64,000 nt of DNA from an uncultured Desulfofustis sp. (GTDB taxonomy: Bacteria; Desulfobacterota; Desulfobulbia; Desulfobulbales; Desulfocapsaceae). The notes beneath the pieces were generated by a model. That model was not told where the DNA came from, searched no databases, and saw only the letters and a list, made by a program, of their open reading frames with translations. The DNA lies in contig CAJQNS010000101.1 of assembly GCA_905479735.1 (NCBI GenBank), positions 1 to 64,000 of the forward strand, given 5' to 3'. The translations under genes and the position numbers were made by a program. Positions 5,599-33,226 of this stretch are shown here, piece by piece (positions within the stretch are counted from its first letter, which is position 1; every line of letters begins with the position of its first letter).

Positions 5599-6210
5599 TT
5601 ATTTGGATTTATTCATATCCCTCGGAGTGAGCAGCGCCTCCGCCAATTTCTCCACCTGTTTCTCTGTGTCTTCCATGCTGCCGCTGTTGTCAATATGGTA
5701 ATCGGACAGATCAATTTTAAGGTTCGGATCCATCTGCACGGCAGTAATCTTCTCTACATCGGCCGGCCTGACCGAATCCCTGTCGACAACACGCTGTAGG
5801 GCAAGGTCAGGATCTGCAGTAACGCATACGCTATAGTCGAAATCCCCTTGCCAGCCGCATTCAAACAAGAGCGGTACTTCGGCAATCTGGGCCTTGGCTA
5901 GAGGGCCTTTGGTCTTCGCTTCCAGCAGTTCTTTACGAACCAGTGGATGAAGAATGTCTTCCAGAAGTTTGCGGACAATCGGATCATTAAACACCGCAGA
6001 TCGTAGAACTACCCTGTCGACTTCACCGCTGCCGGTGAGATAACGTTCACCCCAGGTCTCGACCAACTTCTGATACCCCGCCTCTCCTTTATTCAGAAGC
6101 CGCCGACAGATTTCATCACTACTGTGAACCGGAGCCGACAGTTTGTTTGCAAGCAGCCGGGCCACAAGACTTTTGCCGCTGCCGATGCTGCCAGTAATAC
6201 CAATCAACAT
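5599..6210 (-). CDS. coaE: Dephospho-CoA kinase
   Basis: CoaE phosphorylates the 3'-hydroxyl of dephospho-CoA, the last step of coenzyme A synthesis. The 203 residues begin with a P-loop (GSIGSGKS, 7-14) and contain the HPLVRKELLE and PLLFECGW segments typical of the family. The ATG at 6208-6210 overlaps the end of rluD by 7 bases, so translation is probably coupled. The last 20 or so residues are charged and not conserved. Confidence 0.95.
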   Translation of the reverse strand: MLIGITGSIGSGKSLVARLLANKLSAPVHSSDEICRRLLNKGEAGYQKLVETWGERYLTGSGEVDRVVLRSAVFNDPIVRKLLEDILHPLVRKELLEAKTKGPLAKAQIAEVPLLFECGWQGDFDYSVCVTADPDLALQRVVDRDSVRPADVEKITAVQMDPNLKIDLSDYHIDNSGSMEDTEKQVEKLAEALLTPRDMNKSK

Positions 6211-7154
6211 GAAACCTTCTCCAATTCCACCAGGACCGTTGCAAAGTCTTCGGCCAGATCCGCCTCCGCCCTTCGCCTTTGACCTGTGGCAGGATGTTGA
6301 AAGGTGAGCTTCCAGGCATGCAGCATCTGGCGTGGAAAGCCGGTGTTATCTCTGGAGGAACCGTAAAGATGATCTCCAGCCACGGGATAGCCAAGGTGAG
6401 CAAGATGCACCCGAATTTGATGGGTTCTGCCGGTTTCTATATGAACCTCAACAAGAGTATGTCTTGCGAACCTCTTTTTACTTTTCCAATTGCTTACTGC
6501 GTGCCTGCCATTTCGTTCTCGTATCGCCATTTTTTGTCGATGAACCGGATGCCTGCCGATCGGCGCCACGATGCGGCCAGCGTCTTCCGTCATGACGCCG
6601 CTTACCAGAGCAAGGTAGTTTTTTTCAACCTGGCGATTCTTGAACTGGTTTACCAGATGGGAATGGGCGGTTATGGTGCGGGCCACGATCATCACTCCTG
6701 AGGTATCCTTATCGAGCCGGTGGACAATACCGGGACGGTTTTCATCTCCGACCTGGCCGATATTGTGGTATCGGAACAAGAGACCGTTTACCAGGGTATT
6801 GTCAATGTTTCCGCTTCCCGGATGAACCACAAGCCCTGGGGGCTTGGAAATTACCAGATATTCCGGATCTTCTTCGATGACTTCAAATGAGACATCCTGC
6901 GGTTTCAAGGCCAGCGGTTCAGAGACAATTTCGATGGTGCCGCTGATCACATCCCCAGGCTTCAATCGATACCCAGGTTTCACCTTAACTTCATTGACTT
7001 GAATCGTTCCCGATTTGATCGAGTCAGAGAGTTGGGATCTCGAAAATTCTTCGAAGGTCAGGGCCAGATATTGATCCAGGCGCAGGTTGTGAAACCGTTT
7101 CTCGACTTTACATGAAAACGGCTCGTCATCGGATGACAACCAGGGCTTCTTCAT
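6204..7154 (-). CDS. rluD: Ribosomal large subunit pseudouridine synthase, RluD family
   Basis: It converts uridines in 23S rRNA to pseudouridine. The 316 residues have an N-terminal S4 RNA-binding domain (about 25-70) and the RluA-type catalytic domain with HRLDKDTSG, catalytic D148. The order S4 plus RluA fold and the length fit RluD (helix 69 modification) better than RluA or RluC, but the target site is an inference. Start is ATG. It lies between the carD-type gene and coaE, overlapping the latter. Confidence 0.9.
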   Translation of the reverse strand: MKKPWLSSDDEPFSCKVEKRFHNLRLDQYLALTFEEFSRSQLSDSIKSGTIQVNEVKVKPGYRLKPGDVISGTIEIVSEPLALKPQDVSFEVIEEDPEYLVISKPPGLVVHPGSGNIDNTLVNGLLFRYHNIGQVGDENRPGIVHRLDKDTSGVMIVARTITAHSHLVNQFKNRQVEKNYLALVSGVMTEDAGRIVAPIGRHPVHRQKMAIRERNGRHAVSNWKSKKRFARHTLVEVHIETGRTHQIRVHLAHLGYPVAGDHLYGSSRDNTGFPRQMLHAWKLTFQHPATGQRRRAEADLAEDFATVLVELEKVSC

Positions 7155-21576: not shown

Positions 21577-23430
21577 TTATTCACTCTGCAGGGAGTCATT
21601 TACAAACTTACCCTTGTATTGTGTACCGTCCGGTTTGGTCAGCTTACCATAGCCATTTCTTCTTCCATTGGCGAATTCCCCCTCATAAACCGTACCATCA
21701 GCGGAGGTCAATACGCCTTGGCCGTCCGGCAGATCATCCTTGAATGCGCCTTCGTAGATCGAATTGTCGGCATAATTCAAGGTTCCCTTGCCATTGAAGC
21801 TACCGTACCTGAACGATCCCCGGTAGATGCTGCCGTCAGCGAATCGATACTCTCCGATCCCATCAAAGTAATCGTCTTTGAATTCTCCGACATAGCTAGT
21901 GCCGTCAGGGTAGGAAAAGGTGCCTTCACCGTCTCGTTTTCCAAGCAGATACCAGCCGGTATACTGACGGCCATCATTAAAGCTGAATGTCCCCTTGCCG
22001 TTGTACTGGTCGAGTTCGAACTCTCCGGAATAGCTGTCTCCACTGGCATAATCTATTGTCCCCCGGCCGTGTTTCAAGCCATCTTTCAAAGATCCTCGGT
22101 ACCTGGAGTTATCGGGGTAGACGAAATCGATTTCACCGTTCATCGGCACGCTGCCATCACTCCCTGTCCAGATCTTGCCCTCGGCGAAAACGGGGTTTTC
22201 ATTGCCTGGCGCAGCAGATTCCGGCACCCCCACTTCTGTCTCAGAGGCGGTCTGATATTCTTGCTCTTGATCACTATCAGCATTGTCTTTGTCGACCAAT
22301 TCCGTTTCCCGGAACGCTTCATCATCCGTGGACTGCCCGGCAGCCTGAACTACGGCTCCGCCAGCTGCTGCAGTTGCCGGAGCTGTCACCGGGCTTGCCA
22401 GTTTCTGTTCACTGGCTGTTTCTCCGGGGGGAAGCACCGGGCTGCCATCGATGAACTCGCCTTCGAAGACTCGCCCATCGCTATATACCATCTTACCCTT
22501 GCCGTGCAGCTTACCGTCTGTAAACGCCCCCGAATAGACTGATCCGTCATTATATTGATATCTTCCTTTGCCGTGCATCTGGCCGGCAATGAACTGGCCT
22601 TCATAAACGCTGCCATCCTGAAAGCTCAAAGTTCCAGGGCCCTCCGCCAGCCCGCCTATGTACTCTCCGGTATAAACAGAACCATTGGCGTAGTGCATCT
22701 CTCCACTGCCATAAAACAGGCCATTCTTGAAGCCGCCGGAATAGTAACTGCCGTCTTGGTACTTCAAGGTTCCGGTTCCGGAGTAAAGATTTTTTTTAAA
22801 CTCGCCCTCATAAATATCGCCGGAAGTCAGCTCCAGTATACCAAAACCGTTTCTGGCCTCGCCTTCAAACTCACCTCTGTAAAGTGAACCGTCGGGATAA
22901 GACCGGGTGCCTTTACCATGAGGCTGACCATTGCTGAACATCCCCTCATACCAGCTGCCGTCAACATAGACGAGACGCCCCTGCCCATCGATCATGTTGT
23001 TATGAAACTCACCTTTATACTCCCTGCCGTCAGGATAGAAGAGGACACCTTTACCGTGATATCTGCCGAGTTGGAAGTCGCCACGGTACTTCATACCTTC
23101 CGGGGTAATAAGGTATCCCTGGCCATCAATGATGCCATCCTTGAATTCTCCCTCGTAGCGGCGGCCGTCCCTGCCTTTGAGTTCCCCCGTGCCGGTCATC
23201 TTGCCATTCTGGAAAGCACCTTTATAGACCGTGCCATCAGGGTAAGTCAGGGTTCCGGTACCATGGGCTTTACCGCTGACAAACGGGCCTTCATACCTTT
23301 TCCCGTCCTTGGCCACATAAACACCTGTGCCCTGCCTGCAGTCACCTTCAATACACGAAGGCCAGACCGTCTGCGGAAAGAGCAGGCATACTGCAAAAAG
23401 CAGAACTCCTGATTTGATCATGTTGCACAT
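21577..23430 (-). CDS. Secreted MORN-repeat protein (about 21 repeats)
   Basis: An exported repeat protein with no known activity. Residues 1-25 are a signal peptide, cut near WPS-C. Then follow about 13 MORN units of 23 residues (Y-x-G-x-F-x2-G-x2-H-G-x-G-x-L-x-Y-x-D-G) to about residue 330, a 110-residue Ala, Glu and Gln-rich linker, and about 8 more units to the end, 617 residues in all. MORN repeats form elongated beta-hairpin rods that mediate protein or lipid contacts. ATG start, with AGGAGAATTT just upstream. It is 48 bp before the DUF4177 gene on the same strand. Confidence 0.9.
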   Translation of the reverse strand: MCNMIKSGVLLFAVCLLFPQTVWPSCIEGDCRQGTGVYVAKDGKRYEGPFVSGKAHGTGTLTYPDGTVYKGAFQNGKMTGTGELKGRDGRRYEGEFKDGIIDGQGYLITPEGMKYRGDFQLGRYHGKGVLFYPDGREYKGEFHNNMIDGQGRLVYVDGSWYEGMFSNGQPHGKGTRSYPDGSLYRGEFEGEARNGFGILELTSGDIYEGEFKKNLYSGTGTLKYQDGSYYSGGFKNGLFYGSGEMHYANGSVYTGEYIGGLAEGPGTLSFQDGSVYEGQFIAGQMHGKGRYQYNDGSVYSGAFTDGKLHGKGKMVYSDGRVFEGEFIDGSPVLPPGETASEQKLASPVTAPATAAAGGAVVQAAGQSTDDEAFRETELVDKDNADSDQEQEYQTASETEVGVPESAAPGNENPVFAEGKIWTGSDGSVPMNGEIDFVYPDNSRYRGSLKDGLKHGRGTIDYASGDSYSGEFELDQYNGKGTFSFNDGRQYTGWYLLGKRDGEGTFSYPDGTSYVGEFKDDYFDGIGEYRFADGSIYRGSFRYGSFNGKGTLNYADNSIYEGAFKDDLPDGQGVLTSADGTVYEGEFANGRRNGYGKLTKPDGTQYKGKFVNDSLQSE

Positions 23431-24738: not shown

Positions 24739-25719
24739 TCATTGAGATTGGACCCGATTTCGAGTTCCTAAATAGTCAACCGTTTTAACCAGTACGTACA
24801 TTAACGCCAGGGAAAATAACAAACGCCCCCAGAGAATACCCCCTAGCTTTCCCCCGAGTGCCATCATTACCAGGGTGTCCTCAATGAGGCCGTGACTGAG
24901 CGACATCAGCGCCAGTGAATTAAACACTTCTCGGGAATCCATTTTTCCGGCGGTTGTCTCTTTGATAATCAGTGCACCACCATAGGCAATGCCCAGAATC
25001 ATCCCGACCACCGTCACAGGAGCTGCCCGGTGGGTCATGCCAAACAAGGGCAGCAGAGGTTTGAGCAGCATCTCAATCAGCTTGATGAGACCGATGGCTT
25101 GCAGCAGACGCATGGCAAGCAGGACGAAGAATATGACCACACAGATAAGCACCACATTGGCAGCTTGCCCAATACCCCATTGCAGAAGTGACATCTCCTC
25201 CGGAGTCGCCTGGAAGAGCATGATGGCCGGCTCCTGCCAGATATCCAGCCTGGTACATATTTGATTGAGTAAAATTCCGTATACCAGGGCACCCAGCAGA
25301 CGCAGCAATCCCATGGGGAGAATACCGGCCCCGGCCTTTTTAGTGATACTCAGTTCAACAGGAAGGCTGTGGGCAATCAACATTACCGAGCATAGAACGG
25401 TCAGGTCAGCTGCACTCAGACTCAGCGACGGACCCAGGGCGGCGTATACGCCTATAGCTCCATAGGGCGTTGTCAAAATCGCGGTTGCCCAGACCAGCCC
25501 CAGTTCTCCGGGAAGCCCCATGAGACCCATCAGAGGGTCAAGTGCTTTACCGATATGGACAATCAGACCGAGTTCCTCGAGAATTTTGGTGATGATGATA
25601 GCGGGAACGGTGACCTTCAGAAGCTCGAAACTGGTGTTCAGGCTATCCTTGCCAAGATCCCTGAGAAACCCAAGAACTCGGGCGGTTTTGGGAGACATTT
25701 TCATTTCAAAAGAAGACAT
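24739..25719 (-). CDS. Nucleoside-recognition (Gate) domain membrane protein
   Basis: An integral membrane protein of 326 residues with about eight hydrophobic segments in two halves, each resembling the Gate domain (PF07670) found in SpmA/SpmB and nucleoside transporters. The first half has WATAILTTPYGAIGVYAA and the second VVGMILGIAYGGALIIKE, two related helical hairpins. The solute, if any, is unknown. ATG start without a strong ribosome site; later in-frame ATG codons (residues 6 and 8) are possible. It lies 14 bp past the sixA stop. Confidence 0.85.
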   Translation of the reverse strand: MSSFEMKMSPKTARVLGFLRDLGKDSLNTSFELLKVTVPAIIITKILEELGLIVHIGKALDPLMGLMGLPGELGLVWATAILTTPYGAIGVYAALGPSLSLSAADLTVLCSVMLIAHSLPVELSITKKAGAGILPMGLLRLLGALVYGILLNQICTRLDIWQEPAIMLFQATPEEMSLLQWGIGQAANVVLICVVIFFVLLAMRLLQAIGLIKLIEMLLKPLLPLFGMTHRAAPVTVVGMILGIAYGGALIIKETTAGKMDSREVFNSLALMSLSHGLIEDTLVMMALGGKLGGILWGRLLFSLALMYVLVKTVDYLGTRNRVQSQ

Positions 25720-25733
25720 CGGGGCGGCAGGAT

Positions 25734-26240
25734 TCAGTCATCGGTGTTGAGCCGCTTGGGATAGTCAAGCAGGAGCATCTTGCCAGCTCCTTCAGCAACC
25801 ATATCCCAGGAATGCACGTTGAAGGAGATAAGGACAATACCACAGGTGGGCACATTTACGAGTGACTCCCCGCTGAACATTTCGGCACATTCGGTCAATC
25901 CGTGATTGTGGCCAACAACTGCCAGGACCTCAACCGACGCAGGGGTCTTCTTGACGACCTCAAGCAGACCTTGAGATGAAAAGCTGTATAAATCATCGTC
26001 TAAAATGATCTCTTTTTTTCCAAAACCAAGTGCAGCACCAATGCCGCGGGCGGTTCTTCTAGCCCGTTTTGCTGGACTGGAGATGATCATATCCGGCTGT
26101 TGATCTAAGGCCGCCATCCGCTTTCCCATTAGTGGAATGTCTCGCTTTCCGCGCTTGTTCAAGGGGCGGGAAAAATCACTCAGACTTGGATCGGACCAGC
26201 TCGATTTGGCATGCCTGATCAGGTAGAGATGTTTCATCAT
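25734..26240 (-). CDS. sixA: Phosphohistidine phosphatase SixA family
   Basis: SixA removes phosphate from phosphohistidine on phosphotransfer domains or PTS proteins. The 168 residues open with LYLIRHAKSSW, the RHG motif of the histidine phosphatase superfamily, then RPLNKRGKRD, SSPAKRARRTA and the distal VVGHNHGL His. Start is ATG (a second ATG follows at once) overlapping the parA stop by 4 bases, so translation is coupled. A role toward a histidine kinase or another phosphorylated partner of the neighbours is not shown. Confidence 0.9.
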   Translation of the reverse strand: MMKHLYLIRHAKSSWSDPSLSDFSRPLNKRGKRDIPLMGKRMAALDQQPDMIISSPAKRARRTARGIGAALGFGKKEIILDDDLYSFSSQGLLEVVKKTPASVEVLAVVGHNHGLTECAEMFSGESLVNVPTCGIVLISFNVHSWDMVAEGAGKMLLLDYPKRLNTDD

Positions 26241-26980
26241 GAAAGTCTTCTTTCTCTGATTTCCTGCCAGAGCAGTTCATATGCCTGAGAGGCCACCGAT
26301 TTCCGAGGAGACGAGCCCACCGGCCTTCGATACATCCCCATTTTCTCGATTTCAGCCATGAAGGGGACATAGCTTTGCATAAAAATCGGGTAGGAACGAT
26401 ATTTTTTCATAATCGAGGTATGCATCAGTTTTCTGCGCTCAACCATCGAGAAAAAGGCAAGTATCTTTTTCTTTTTGCAGCCTACTTTCTTGCACAGTTT
26501 CAACAATTGCTCCAGGGCCAGCAGCGACAGTGTTGTCGGGACAACCGGCACCACTACACAGTCTGCTGCGGTAATGATATTTTCCGAGAGGACAGTCACA
26601 TTGGGCGGGCAGTCAAGAATTACATAGTCGTATTGGTCGGCCAGTGGCACCAACAACGAAGCGAGCACCTGCCGCTTCTCTTCTTTTCTTTCGTCGTTGA
26701 TGGCAATATCAAGATTACGGAAAGAGAAATGAGCCGGCAACAAATCTAGCAAAGGAAAATCGGTCCCCCGGATAAAATCATAGAACTCACCATTGAGCAA
26801 CCTTGAACGATTGAACTTTTTTTTTGGTTTGATTCGGTAATAATAGGATGCTGCACCCTGCGAATCCATATCACAGAGCAGCACACGATAACCGTCCCTG
26901 GATGCGGTAAAGGCAAGATTTACCGTGGTTGCGGTTTTACCTACCCCACCTTTGCTGCTGTACACCGCTATTGTTTTCAT
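26237..26980 (-). CDS. ParA/Soj-family ATPase
   Basis: A deviant Walker A ATPase that could position cargo on the nucleoid. The 247 residues show SSKGGVGKTATTVNLAF (deviant Walker A with two Lys), DMDSQGAAS and DYVILDCPPN, the usual ParA marks. There is no parB beside it and no replication gene in the window, so it is an orphan. The ATG at 26980 follows an AGGGTGA site; a GTG one codon earlier is less likely. It lies between a CHAD protein and sixA, and these three appear to be one operon. Confidence 0.88.
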   Translation of the reverse strand: MKTIAVYSSKGGVGKTATTVNLAFTASRDGYRVLLCDMDSQGAASYYYRIKPKKKFNRSRLLNGEFYDFIRGTDFPLLDLLPAHFSFRNLDIAINDERKEEKRQVLASLLVPLADQYDYVILDCPPNVTVLSENIITAADCVVVPVVPTTLSLLALEQLLKLCKKVGCKKKKILAFFSMVERRKLMHTSIMKKYRSYPIFMQSYVPFMAEIEKMGMYRRPVGSSPRKSVASQAYELLWQEIRERRLS

Positions 26981-27001
26981 CACTTCACCCTGTTTCGTTC
27001 T

Positions 27002-28543
27002 TTACAATGAACCGTTAACCATTACCCTCAAGAGCTTTTTTATCTCGGGCCCGGTGAAGTCGGCATAGGTAGATTCGAATTCATTCCTCACTGCTCGGTG
27101 TCTATCTGAGAGTACCGCAATAAGTCCTCCGAGGGCAGCAGCAAAACGGATGGTCTGCAAATTTTTGGCTTTCAATCCACCAAGTTCTGCCCCAAGCATT
27201 GTTTGCTGTACTGACAAATCATTGAAATCACCAAGGTTATCTTGAAGCTTCTTCATATATTTCAAAAATGAGGACATCTGTTTTTCGTCATAAAAACTTT
27301 TAAAAAACTCCAGCAGATATCTAAATTTTTTGCCTTTGATTCTCAATTTGTGCAGCTCTTCGTCAGCACTGGCGTCGGAAATCCGGTCACCATCGCGGAT
27401 GAATGATTTAAAACGTTTGACGATCATCTGGTCAACATAATCACGGCAGTTTTGTGCTCTGCTGCCCTTGAAAATTTCAGAATCGGGATCGGTCAGAAAA
27501 CCCTTCCAATCAGTGATCAATTTACCGAAACGCTCTGAGCCAAGATGGGACTGCAGTTCTCTCAATTCTCCATTTCGCCTGACTTCAAGCTGCTCAAAAA
27601 AGGAGCTCATGCCATCTTGAAGCTCGGCCGGAAGCATATTCAGATATTTGTCTTTTTCGAGCAGATATACATCAATGTCTCTTAAGGGGCCGGTAACAGT
27701 GCCGAGCCAGCGGAACTCTTCCTGAAAATATCGGCACTGCGCCTCCGGCAGAATCTTTTTCAGCAGACTCAAAAGAGAACGGGTGCGGCGCACTGCAATT
27801 CGAAAATCGTGCAGGAATTCGGAATCGATGTCGGCGATCACTCCGGCATGATTCTTCTGCATGTCCTCAACCAGGCGCAGGCAGAGTCTGGACACCGCAC
27901 CACCAATGCTAATATCCCGATCCAGATCGACCCTGAACTTGGCACCATAGTCGCGCGGAGTAAGGTCTGAGTTGCTCAGCAATCTGTCAAACAACCTCTT
28001 ATTTTTCACCTCACTGCAGCGCCTTTTCAGACAATGTTCAACGATTCCGTCAAACTCGCGCTCATAGCCACGAATTTCGTGGACAATTATCAATTCAGGC
28101 AGCTCCGAAGTCTGTTCACCTAGACGATCATTGCGTACCGCGAGCCTGGCGACAGTCTTGCGATCCTTGTTCATGATTCGGAATTGGGTGGCTTCGGTCG
28201 ACAACTCAATTATTGGGCAAAGCGCCCGCATTTCAATATTCTCCTTCAACCGTTCAACGAGCTCTCCTTCTTCGATGTCCCACCAGAAAAATTTTGACCT
28301 TCTACGTCCTGCTGCCACAGCCAGCCCTTGACCATTGAACTGTTCCAGGTGCAGTGCTCCACCACTTGAGAAAAAAACTTGATTGGCGCGATGCAGTCGC
28401 CAATCGAAAGTATCGTAATAGACTCGGTGGGTTACTTCATGGCTGAAGTCTTCGATAATAAACTTCTTTGATAGCCGTCGCAGAAGCGATTCAAATCCAT
28501 CGCCGTGGGGAAAACTGAACATATTTTTACGCAATTGTTTCAT
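27002..28543 (-). CDS. CYTH-like/CHAD domain protein
   Basis: CHAD domains bind inorganic polyphosphate and often ride with CYTH triphosphatase domains. Residues about 20-185 look like a degraded CYTH domain (VYYDTFDWRLHRANQVFF), lacking the E-x-E-x-K catalytic motif. Residues about 215-510 are CHAD, with FLHDFRIAVRRTRSLLSLL and the second-half ELHKLRIKGKKFRYLLEFF, both rich in conserved His, Arg and Lys. The ATG at 28543 follows the argJ stop by one base; an ATG at 28576 would overlap argJ by 32 bases. A polyP-binding, non-enzymatic role is the likeliest. Confidence 0.85.
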   Translation of the reverse strand: MKQLRKNMFSFPHGDGFESLLRRLSKKFIIEDFSHEVTHRVYYDTFDWRLHRANQVFFSSGGALHLEQFNGQGLAVAAGRRRSKFFWWDIEEGELVERLKENIEMRALCPIIELSTEATQFRIMNKDRKTVARLAVRNDRLGEQTSELPELIIVHEIRGYEREFDGIVEHCLKRRCSEVKNKRLFDRLLSNSDLTPRDYGAKFRVDLDRDISIGGAVSRLCLRLVEDMQKNHAGVIADIDSEFLHDFRIAVRRTRSLLSLLKKILPEAQCRYFQEEFRWLGTVTGPLRDIDVYLLEKDKYLNMLPAELQDGMSSFFEQLEVRRNGELRELQSHLGSERFGKLITDWKGFLTDPDSEIFKGSRAQNCRDYVDQMIVKRFKSFIRDGDRISDASADEELHKLRIKGKKFRYLLEFFKSFYDEKQMSSFLKYMKKLQDNLGDFNDLSVQQTMLGAELGGLKAKNLQTIRFAAALGGLIAVLSDRHRAVRNEFESTYADFTGPEIKKLLRVMVNGSL

Positions 28544-28544
28544 C

Positions 28545-29729
28545 TCAAGACCGGTAATCCGCATTGATTTTGACATAGTCTATTGACAGGTCACAGGTGT
28601 AAACCTCTTCACAACCGGTACCGTCCTGGAGATCGATACAGACAGTGAAATGTTTGTTTTTGAGCACTCGTGCAGCCCTCTCTTCTGCTTCACTGCCCTG
28701 GGCAATGCCGGCTTTGACTATCAGCGCATCGCCAAAAGCGATATCGACCTTATCGGGATTGAATCTGATGCCCGATCTGCCCATCGCCCCGAGAATCCGT
28801 CCCCAATTGGCATCTTCACCGAAAAATGCCGTTTTCACCAGATTCGAATTGGCCACGGTTCTGGCTATCTGTTCAGCATCGGAGTCTTCTTTGGCTCCGC
28901 AGACGCGTATGGATATGCGCTTGGTCGCTCCTTCTCCATCTTCGACAATTTTCAAAGCAAGCTCTTTGCAAATTTCTTCCAGACAATCTTTGAACAACTC
29001 ATAATCAGGACTCTGATCATCCTCGATCCATGGATTCTCGGCAGAACCGTTGGCCATGACCAGAACCATGTCGTTGGTGCTGGTGTCACCATCGACGGTG
29101 ATACGGTTGAAGGTTCTCTCAACCGAAGCTTTGAGGGCTCGGTTTAGTTCGGGGAAACTTATCTGGGCATCGGTCAAAATGAAGGCCAGCATGGTTGCCA
29201 TGTTCGGCATGATCATCCCTGATCCCTTGGCCATGCCAAGGAACCTGACTTCCCGGTCGCCGATAACCACTGATTTGGCAACAGTTTTTGCTACCGTATC
29301 TGTGGTCATAATCGCCTCTGCAACCTGCTCGAAATTTTCCTCGGAAAGACTGGAGACCAGGGGGGCCATATTATTTTCGAAGGCTTGCACATTGAGCGGC
29401 AATCCGATTACACCGGTGGAGGAGACCAGCACCATATCCTCAGGGATCCCAAGGGCCTCGGCTGCCAGCCTGCTGGTTTCTAGAGCTGCCTCCATCCCCT
29501 CCCGCCCGGTGCAGGCATTGGCGTTACCGCTGTTCACCAGGAGCGCCTGACAGCGTCCCTGCTTCAATCTGTCAATACTCAGCAGTACCGGTGCGGCTTT
29601 TACCTGATTTGTGGTAAAAACACCCGCTGCAACCGCCGGAGTGCGGCTGTAGATCAAGCCCAGGTCGAGTCGATCTCGATATTTGATGCCGGCAGGGACG
29701 GCCGCCAAAGAAAAATCTTTTATTATCAT
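28545..29729 (-). CDS. argJ: Bifunctional glutamate N-acetyltransferase/ornithine acetyltransferase
   Basis: ArgJ moves acetyl from N-acetylornithine to glutamate, recycling acetyl in arginine synthesis, and many forms also use acetyl-CoA. The 394 residues have the self-cleavage site PNMATMLAF, whose Thr becomes the nucleophile of the beta chain, plus the VNSGNANACTG and GNADY-like C-terminal segments. ATG start. A separate argA-type gene at 37824-38291 suggests this ArgJ may be monofunctional here, but that cannot be read from sequence. CHAD follows directly. Confidence 0.95.
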   Translation of the reverse strand: MIIKDFSLAAVPAGIKYRDRLDLGLIYSRTPAVAAGVFTTNQVKAAPVLLSIDRLKQGRCQALLVNSGNANACTGREGMEAALETSRLAAEALGIPEDMVLVSSTGVIGLPLNVQAFENNMAPLVSSLSEENFEQVAEAIMTTDTVAKTVAKSVVIGDREVRFLGMAKGSGMIMPNMATMLAFILTDAQISFPELNRALKASVERTFNRITVDGDTSTNDMVLVMANGSAENPWIEDDQSPDYELFKDCLEEICKELALKIVEDGEGATKRISIRVCGAKEDSDAEQIARTVANSNLVKTAFFGEDANWGRILGAMGRSGIRFNPDKVDIAFGDALIVKAGIAQGSEAEERAARVLKNKHFTVCIDLQDGTGCEEVYTCDLSIDYVKINADYRS

Positions 29730-31462: not shown

Positions 31463-32203
31463 ATGCGCATCCTACTCATTTCCGATATTCATGCTAATTT
31501 CGTGGCGCTTGAGGCGGTAGCCAGACGCTTCGACCCGAAAAGTTTCGATCTGATCCTCAACGGTGGTGACACGCTGGTCTACGGTCCTTTTCCAAACCAG
31601 ACCATAGACTGGCTTAGAAATTACAAGGTTCTTTCGATTCTGGGTAATACCGATCGCCACGTAATCACCCTCCTCCAGGGGAATACTTTCAAGAAACCCC
31701 GCAAAGCCGAAAAGCGGATCATGTATGGCTGGACCACTGCTGAACTCAGCAACGACAATCGCCTCTGGCTGCTTGAACAACCGTTATCAAGGACCATCGA
31801 GATACCCTTCGCCCAGGAGAAAAGAAATCGACAGTCGAATCTGGCCATGTATCACGGCAGCCCAGCCGATCCGGATGAGTTTCTTTTTCCGGCTACTCCA
31901 ATTTGTCGACTTCTTGAGTTGTCGAAACTGGTGGCTTCTCCCCTGGTTACCATCGGCCACAGCCACCAGCAGTTTAATATTCAGGCTGGTGGAGTTAATT
32001 TCATTAATCCCGGCAGCACTGGCAGGATGTTCGACGGTAAAATCAGCGGGGGCTGTGCGGTGATTACGGTGGCAAAGAACAAGCTCAACATAGAGCTTCA
32101 TCGCATCAGCTTTTCCGCCTCAGCCGTTGCTGCTGAAATCAAAAAGCACCGATTACCTCCCCTCTATGCAGAGATGTATCTTCGGGGCCGAAAACTCAAT
32201 TAA
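31463..32203 (+). CDS. YfcE-like metallophosphoesterase
   Basis: A calcineurin-like phosphodiesterase with two-metal motifs: DIHAN, GGDTLVYGP, GNTD and GHSHQQF. The 246 residues are longer than E. coli YfcE (184), with inserted segments before the HSH motif. The substrate is not evident. ATG start 31 bp after cls, so co-transcription is plausible. No signal peptide. Confidence 0.85.
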   Translation: MRILLISDIHANFVALEAVARRFDPKSFDLILNGGDTLVYGPFPNQTIDWLRNYKVLSILGNTDRHVITLLQGNTFKKPRKAEKRIMYGWTTAELSNDNRLWLLEQPLSRTIEIPFAQEKRNRQSNLAMYHGSPADPDEFLFPATPICRLLELSKLVASPLVTIGHSHQQFNIQAGGVNFINPGSTGRMFDGKISGGCAVITVAKNKLNIELHRISFSASAVAAEIKKHRLPPLYAEMYLRGRKLN

Positions 32204-32314
32204 TAGTAATTATCATTTGCCTTGATTGACTGACCTCTGTTAGATTCTAGTTAATTTCTATTGCGGATTCCAATTGAACGATTGACCCTTTCCCCTCTAC
32301 TATGGAGCCAAACC

Positions 32315-33226
32315 ATGGGTGACAGCGGCAAAAAAGAGAAAAAATCGAGAAGCGTAAAGAGTGACACAAAGCTCCAGGAACTGACCGCTCTGCGCAATAT
32401 CGATGCCAAGGATAGCAAGGATCGAACGGCCATCTGGATCAAGAATTGGCACCTGGCCTACGAATACGAACTGAGGCGGCTTCAGGTCGAGCTGATGAAA
32501 CTCCAGCAGACAATGAAAGACCAGGGTGCGAGGCTGCTGCTGATTTTCGAGGGACGTGACGCGGCCGGCAAGGGCGGCACCATCAAAAGATTTATCGCCC
32601 ACCTCAACCCACGGTATACCAGAGTTACGGCATTGATTAAGCCCAACGAGACGGAAGGAACCCAGTGGTATTTTCAACGCTACATCAGCCATCTTCCCGC
32701 CGACGGCGAGATGGTGTTCTTCGACCGAAGCTGGTACAACAGAGCCATGGTTGAACCAGTCATGGGATTCTGTACAGATGAGCAGAACAAACGCTTTCTC
32801 AAGGATGTACCGCTGCTTGAGGAGCTCATCGTCAAAGATGGCATCAAACTATTCAAATTCTACTTCTCTGTTTCCAAGGAAGTTCAAAAAGAGCGGTTCG
32901 AATCAAGGCGTGAAGATCCTCTAAAGCAATACAAACTCTCTCCTGTTGACAACCTGGCTCAGAAATACTGGGATCAATACTCGTTGAGAAAATTTCAGAT
33001 GTTGCAGGAAACCAACAGGACAATGGCTCCCTGGACCATTATCAGATCCGACAACAAGAAACTGGCCCGGATCAACTGCATCCGATACGTTCTGACTCAA
33101 CTGGATTATGAAGGAAAGCTGCCGGCCAAAGAGCTCAAGCCAGACCCGGAAATTGTCGTATCGGGCATCGATGAGTTGAGACACATGGAAGAGCATTTGA
33201 TGAACCCGGATAAGCTCTACGGCTAA
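32315..33226 (+). CDS. ppk2: Polyphosphate kinase 2
   Basis: PPK2 uses polyphosphate to phosphorylate nucleoside diphosphates (or monophosphates, by class). The 303 residues have a charged N terminus, Walker A FEGRDAAGKGG, the lid Arg region and Walker B FFDRSWYNRA, with the EVQKERFESRREDPLK segment typical of class I. The ATG at 32315 has GGAG 7 bases before it; an earlier TTG at 32261 is open but unlikely. The neighbouring polyphosphate-binding CHAD gene is 4 kb away on the other strand. Confidence 0.93.
   Translation: MGDSGKKEKKSRSVKSDTKLQELTALRNIDAKDSKDRTAIWIKNWHLAYEYELRRLQVELMKLQQTMKDQGARLLLIFEGRDAAGKGGTIKRFIAHLNPRYTRVTALIKPNETEGTQWYFQRYISHLPADGEMVFFDRSWYNRAMVEPVMGFCTDEQNKRFLKDVPLLEELIVKDGIKLFKFYFSVSKEVQKERFESRREDPLKQYKLSPVDNLAQKYWDQYSLRKFQMLQETNRTMAPWTIIRSDNKKLARINCIRYVLTQLDYEGKLPAKELKPDPEIVVSGIDELRHMEEHLMNPDKLYG

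Follow-up and report, generated by a model that had tools for sequence, protein, structure and literature searches.

The window analyzed here, a stretch of 64,000 nucleotides from contig C101 of an uncultured Desulfofustis sp., belongs to a 4.0-Mb genome whose assembly is about 91% complete and whose nearest named relatives are Desulfobulbales-type bacteria. Its minus strand carries a tightly packed unit comprising argJ, a CHAD gene, parA and a SixA-like gene, with the following features in and around it:

28545..29729, minus strand: argJ (NCBI ArgJ equivalog), apparently the first gene of the unit, overlapping the CHAD gene
27002..28576, minus strand: CHAD protein (Pfam CHAD, E 8.5e-58), the candidate adaptor; likely start at 28564 or 28576
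26237..26983, minus strand: ParA-type Walker ATPase without ParB (AAA_31/ParA, E 3e-38); likely start at 26980
25734..26240, minus strand: SixA-like histidine phosphatase (His_Phos_1, E 4e-11), accessory
24739..25719, minus strand: Gate-domain (nucleoside recognition) membrane protein, downstream; linked in near relatives only
32261..33226, plus strand: PPK2 (NCBI PPK2 equivalog), on the far side of argJ from the unit
31463..32203, plus strand: metallophosphoesterase between PPK2 and the unit (domain match; order kept in L034-L036)

The first 32 bases of the CHAD gene (20 if it starts at the second ATG) lie within the 3' end of argJ, and the transcription unit therefore probably begins at argJ. 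An earlier note on this DNA had described a CHAD gene 21 bp upstream of parA, a 4-bp overlap between parA and sixA, and a ppk2 gene nearby. The 21-base gap is correct if parA starts at ATG 26980, which we favor because relatives begin with MK-I-A-, and shrinks to 18 bases from GTG 26983; the overlap (ATGA) and the PPK2 gene were both found as described, and the genome also encodes PPK1, on contig C187. A scan of the unit for promoters and terminators gave the same counts as shuffled sequence, so that the end of the operon could not be placed. Downstream of the SixA-like gene, the Gate-domain gene is followed by a valine-pyruvate transaminase gene. Behind the latter, at 21577-23430 on the minus strand, lies a gene for a 617-residue protein with apparently MORN-like repeats; MORN-like proteins occur in matching order in two further genomes, G026 and G010 (L132, L133).

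To place the unit among its relatives, 84,980 genomes were scanned with a ParA profile, which gave 472 relatives among the candidates, and the best 80 were kept. In 68 of these 80, a CHAD gene immediately preceded parA on its strand, the distance between both genes ranging from -40 to +60 bases in 60 of the 67 cases measured and being exactly -4 in 30. The 68 loci come from Thermodesulfobacteriota, alpha-, beta- and gammaproteobacteria, Chlorobiota, Verrucomicrobiota and Kiritimatiellota, and the pair was also present in metagenome bins labeled Chloroflexota, KSB1, Latescibacterota, Gemmatimonadota and others, labels that may be wrong. Cultured carriers include Desulfopila aestuarii, Methylomonas lenta, Methylotuvimicrobium buryatense 5G, Nitrosomonas marina, Cerasicoccus frondis, Pontiella sulfatireligans and Ruegeria. 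Such conservation across phyla excludes chance adjacency, and the pairing of CHAD with ParA is well supported. The possibility, raised in the earlier note, that the two are rarely neighbors elsewhere is thus dispelled: most relatives have them side by side, and the two genes also occur together where they are not linked. Regarding the remaining 12 loci, 11 of the genomes carry this type of CHAD gene elsewhere, one of them as a contig-end fragment only, and in six of these cases the CHAD gene, though away from parA, has a SixA-like neighbor.

The distribution of both genes among 58 related genomes was in agreement with their adjacency. This kind of CHAD was found in 33 genomes and ParA in 34; 32 had both, 3 had one alone and 23 had neither (Fisher 8e-13, a value that ignores kinship). 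In G026, parA comes immediately after argJ and the CHAD gene lies 2.7 Mb away, which indicates that both are retained even when apart. Three genomes with two CHAD copies also have two ParA copies each, pair with pair. Distances between CHAD sequences correlated with those between ParA sequences (r 0.72, with 0 of 2000 permutations as high), a result that shared ancestry could also give. Close relatives of the window share the order argJ-CHAD-parA-sixA, which at L034-L036 extends to PPK2-metallophosphoesterase-argJ-CHAD-parA-sixA, whereas more distant ones keep CHAD-parA only, four of these distant loci having a divergent PPK1 gene one to two kilobases off. For its part, argJ was present at 10 of the 68 wide loci and constant only in Desulfobulbales-type relatives; ArgJ was therefore rejected as a functional partner and is regarded as a neighbor outside the system.

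The partner of ParA is one particular type of CHAD protein. Among 148 genomes of the phylum, 15 encoded any CHAD protein, 7 of the long type (an open frame above 500 residues) and 8 of the short type. Module-type ParA, that is, the ParA of the CHAD-ParA pair, accompanied 6 of the 7 long CYTH-CHAD proteins, adjacent in each case, and none of the 8 short ones (Fisher 0.0014), which argues against a link with CHAD domains or polyphosphate metabolism generally. An AlphaFold2 model of the window protein (pLDDT 94.6) contained two domains, and its best Foldseek match was 6qva, a complex of CHAD with polyphosphate, followed by YgiF and triphosphate-tunnel enzymes. The C-terminal part matched this CtCHAD-polyphosphate structure with a target-normalized TM score of 0.95. 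The N-terminal part resembled triphosphate-tunnel enzymes and also the nonenzymatic Mediator head subunits Med18 and Med20. According to the model, the protein is thus a triphosphate-tunnel (CYTH) fold without ExExK followed by a long CHAD domain. ExExK was absent from the first strand in all 83 sequences compared, the four regex matches falling past strand 1, and hydrolysis by this domain is therefore unlikely.

Mutation of H253, R256, R260, R296 or R418/Y419 in CtCHAD lowers polyphosphate binding (PMC6537752). The equivalent window residues are H256, R259, R263, R299, R419 and Y420, and all six are invariant in 83/83 CHAD sequences. CtCHAD itself is 64% identical to the CHAD protein of a Chlorobiaceae genome (L080) whose next gene encodes a module-type ParA. 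Together with the crystal structure and mutants available for the family, these invariant residues make polyphosphate binding by the window protein a well-supported prediction. The CHAD domain was proposed at the outset to bind polyphosphate, and its place in the clade of the solved complex bears this out and supports polyphosphate as the cargo. At the other end of these proteins, a C-terminal LFxxLF-like motif in its strict form was found in only 15 of the 83 and was absent in the nearest kin of the window, so that as a docking peptide it is no more than a lead. A C-terminal F-[KR]-x-L-F-like stretch, a possible docking or dimerization motif, recurs outside the window's family in numerous CHAD partners (for example, L066, L081 and L087).

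The window ATPase is a member of the ParA/MinD family. All Walker motifs are kept (K10-G-G-V-G-K15-T16, D37, D39 and D123), DCPP is also conserved, and the closest folds were ATP-bound ParA (8ray) and Soj (TM 0.85 to 0.88), with McdA, BcsQ, MinD and FleN next. In the ParA tree, the module sequences and a small sister group formed one clade apart from Soj (support 100/100), and the module ParA profile gave 359 bits for the window protein versus 145 for the Soj of the same genome. No parB lies beside parA at the window locus, in line with the earlier note; the only convincing ParB_N of the genome is on contig C124, where it is paired with that Soj. The pI of the window ParA is 9.6 (clade mean, 9.2), versus 7.0 for Soj paralogues, a basic character that would fit nucleoid binding and, equally, direct binding of polyphosphate. 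A plasmid ParA of Marinobacter nauticus (pMAQU02, L158:5001-5747), 42% identical and related to the module clade, adjoins pyruvate kinase and phbB genes, with neither ParB nor CHAD adjacent.

The fourth gene of the unit proved less constant. The earlier note had identified its product as SixA, and the His_Phos_1 domain with RHA and GHN motifs (present in 23/23 relatives) agrees with this, but its score of 41.7 bits is below the 74.5-bit cutoff of the NCBIfam sixA equivalog TIGR00249, so that SixA-like is the safer name. The gene was found at 23 of 28 near ParA loci and at 21 of the 68 wide CHAD-ParA loci; it is absent at most loci outside the relatives of the window and optional even within the same family. 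Of the parA-sixA-CHAD order that the earlier note proposed to search for, CHAD and parA are conserved together, and SixA is an optional accessory. A role in tuning a phosphohistidine, also put forward at that time, has gene order as its sole support and is a guess. In biomining archaea, SixA is likewise a neighbor of CHAD and PPX (PMC10892726), so that its link is probably with polyphosphate metabolism rather than with ParA.

In flanks of 6 kb at most, 39 of the 68 CHAD-ParA loci carried a gene for a SixA, PPK1, PPK2, PPX, CYTH or Nudix protein, and 19 carried PPK1, PPK2 or PPX. On a Paracoccus plasmid, the NCBI annotation gives CHAD, ATPase, CYTH, NUDIX and CYTH consecutively. A Pfam search for Ppx-GppA gave no match in the window genome, about 91% complete, despite its PPK1 and PPK2. 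At four Methylobacter loci (L045, L046, L050 and L061), a module ParA gene (about 5750-6760) without adjoining CHAD lies between sensor-kinase genes and glycogen phosphorylase, and glycogen phosphorylase is also close to CHAD-ParA at L042, L048, L103 and L105; granule positioning may be tied to glycogen.

The conserved pairing across phyla suggests an unrecognized system that positions polyphosphate granules and distributes them. That the unit works as a ParA cargo-positioning system, with the polyphosphate granule as cargo and the CHAD protein as adaptor, is the reading we favor, with reasonable though limited confidence. The CHAD protein would coat granules, or dock on them, through its CHAD domain; ParA, dimerized by ATP, would bind the nucleoid nonspecifically; and the CHAD protein would recruit ParA and stimulate its ATPase. 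Granules would thereby be set at intervals along the nucleoid and divided between daughter cells, as carboxysomes are by McdAB. The dead CYTH-fold domain would probably serve as a docking or scaffold surface rather than as an enzyme, and the SixA, PPK1/PPK2, PPX, CYTH and Nudix neighbors would be accessories that make, trim or regulate polyphosphate. For the complete picture, an ATP-driven positioning and inheritance system in several phyla built of a nucleoid ParA and a granule-bound CHAD protein with a dead triphosphate-tunnel domain, we put the chances just above even.

The contact between ParA and the CHAD protein is the weakest step of the model. Known ParA/MinD partners usually touch the ATPase by a basic, disordered N terminus (PMC10241942, PMC12204374), which is mostly missing in this CHAD family: the tail before the first strand has a median of 6 residues and a mean net charge of 0, although that of the window protein has 18 residues and a charge of +4. 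A basic N-terminal ParA-binding peptide was therefore rejected as not conserved across the family, and the contact would have to lie elsewhere, the pseudo-tunnel domain being the natural candidate surface. Also against positioning, ParA occurs without this CHAD in G010, G041 and G089, and this CHAD without ParA in G047. Two of those ParA proteins (at L134:1453-7109 in G041 and L135:5073-5822 in G089) belong to the sister clade without CHAD, which sits by GAK-system genes instead; at L134 these encode ATP-grasp, HprK-related kinase B and CofD-like proteins, together with amphi-Trp proteins, and may point to another ParA-cargo pair. Finally, PPK1 was more frequent in module genomes (23 of 32 versus 4 of 26 genomes without the module), which speaks for the model, but the 9 module genomes in which none was found count against it.

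The main rival is a ParA that moves nothing. BcsQ, of the same ATPase family, supports cellulose synthesis, and the window ParA, held on granules by CHAD, could likewise regulate how polyphosphate is made or degraded in a nucleotide-dependent manner. The recurrence of PPK1, PPK2, PPX, CYTH and Nudix genes by the pair and the BcsQ structures among the fold matches would fit such a role; however, in fold and sequence the protein is closer to DNA-segregating ParA/Soj than to BcsQ, and CHAD is a constant partner where the PPK genes are not. We consider this regulator rather unlikely. Less probable still is a ParA that links PPK or CHAD, bound to polyphosphate, with the nucleoid and so controls the chromosome (its replication, compaction or segregation in starvation), with polyphosphate as the signal. 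The strongly basic ParA and its chromosomal fold would suit this, but the chromosome of the window genome already has its own Soj/ParB pair, and parB-like genes do not recur at the module. That a plasmid or element partition ParA was stranded beside CHAD by chance, as the nearest NCBIfam models (plasmid ParA families) and the naming of the Acidithiobacillus gene as plasmid ParA (PMC10892726) might suggest, is highly improbable and was rejected, given the pairing across phyla, the missing ParB, the clade separate from Soj and the CHAD neighbor of all six Paracoccus matches in plasmid records.

Few bacterial bodies are as widespread as polyphosphate granules. If positioning is correct, this would be the first known case of an ATPase-driven system acting on them; a conserved ParA partner hands CHAD a concrete, testable role, and the granule becomes an added cargo for the ParA family, in which many ATPases remain orphans. 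Methylotuvimicrobium buryatense 5G (L053) and Ruegeria (L079) are hosts with named genomes in which the pair can be tested. CHAD proteins bind granules, but according to PMC6537752, which cites earlier work in Ralstonia and E. coli, no apparent phenotype followed their deletion in the species tested. Of seven Halothiobacillus ATPases of the ParA/MinD family studied in 2023, five were assigned to cargos, none of them polyphosphate (PMC10241942), and a 2025 review names AlgP as the only granule-spacing factor and the use of energy for spacing as unknown (PMC13052382). The open-access literature searched, preprints being outside its scope, contained no proposal of a positioning role for ParA-CHAD, and this includes the two papers that report a folD-ppk-parA-CHAD cluster as highly conserved in Acidithiobacillus (PMC10892726, PMC6416229). 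That cluster resembles the module in its gene neighborhood, with parA beside CHAD and PPK1, but its ParA was assigned to a plasmid or the chromosome, in work on copper or cAMP, and the pair was not recognized as one shared across phyla.

Comparison with the remaining known systems places the pair apart from each. Soj/ParA of ParABS shares the ATPase fold and Walker motifs, but the window ParA falls in a separate clade and has no ParB neighbor. CtCHAD of Chlorobaculum tepidum (3E0S, 6QV7, 6QVA; PMC6537752) belongs to the same adaptor clade, with the six polyphosphate residues conserved; the crystallized construct, however, is without the N-terminal CYTH-fold part, and the ParA linkage is known from Chlorobiaceae relatives. 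AlgP of Pseudomonas aeruginosa (PMC9239181) connects granules to the nucleoid and influences their spacing, but is a histone H1-like protein with no known ATPase and no CHAD or ParA component. The window protein, without ExExK, with a CHAD domain of the long type and with ParA as partner, differs from YgiF although both have the order CYTH then CHAD. YgiF is the CYTH-CHAD short-chain polyphosphatase of E. coli. A parallel in layout is McdAB, the carboxysome positioning system, in which a ParA-type ATPase gene likewise lies beside the gene for a binder of a cytoplasmic body, without ParB, and McdA structures are among the fold matches of the window ParA. The link of ParA to a cargo-binding adaptor gene is found here too (CHAD adjacent in 68/80, polyphosphate residues invariant); the adaptor, however, is not McdB but a CYTH-fold/CHAD protein with a polyphosphate-binding domain, in which a basic, disordered N-terminal tail is not conserved.
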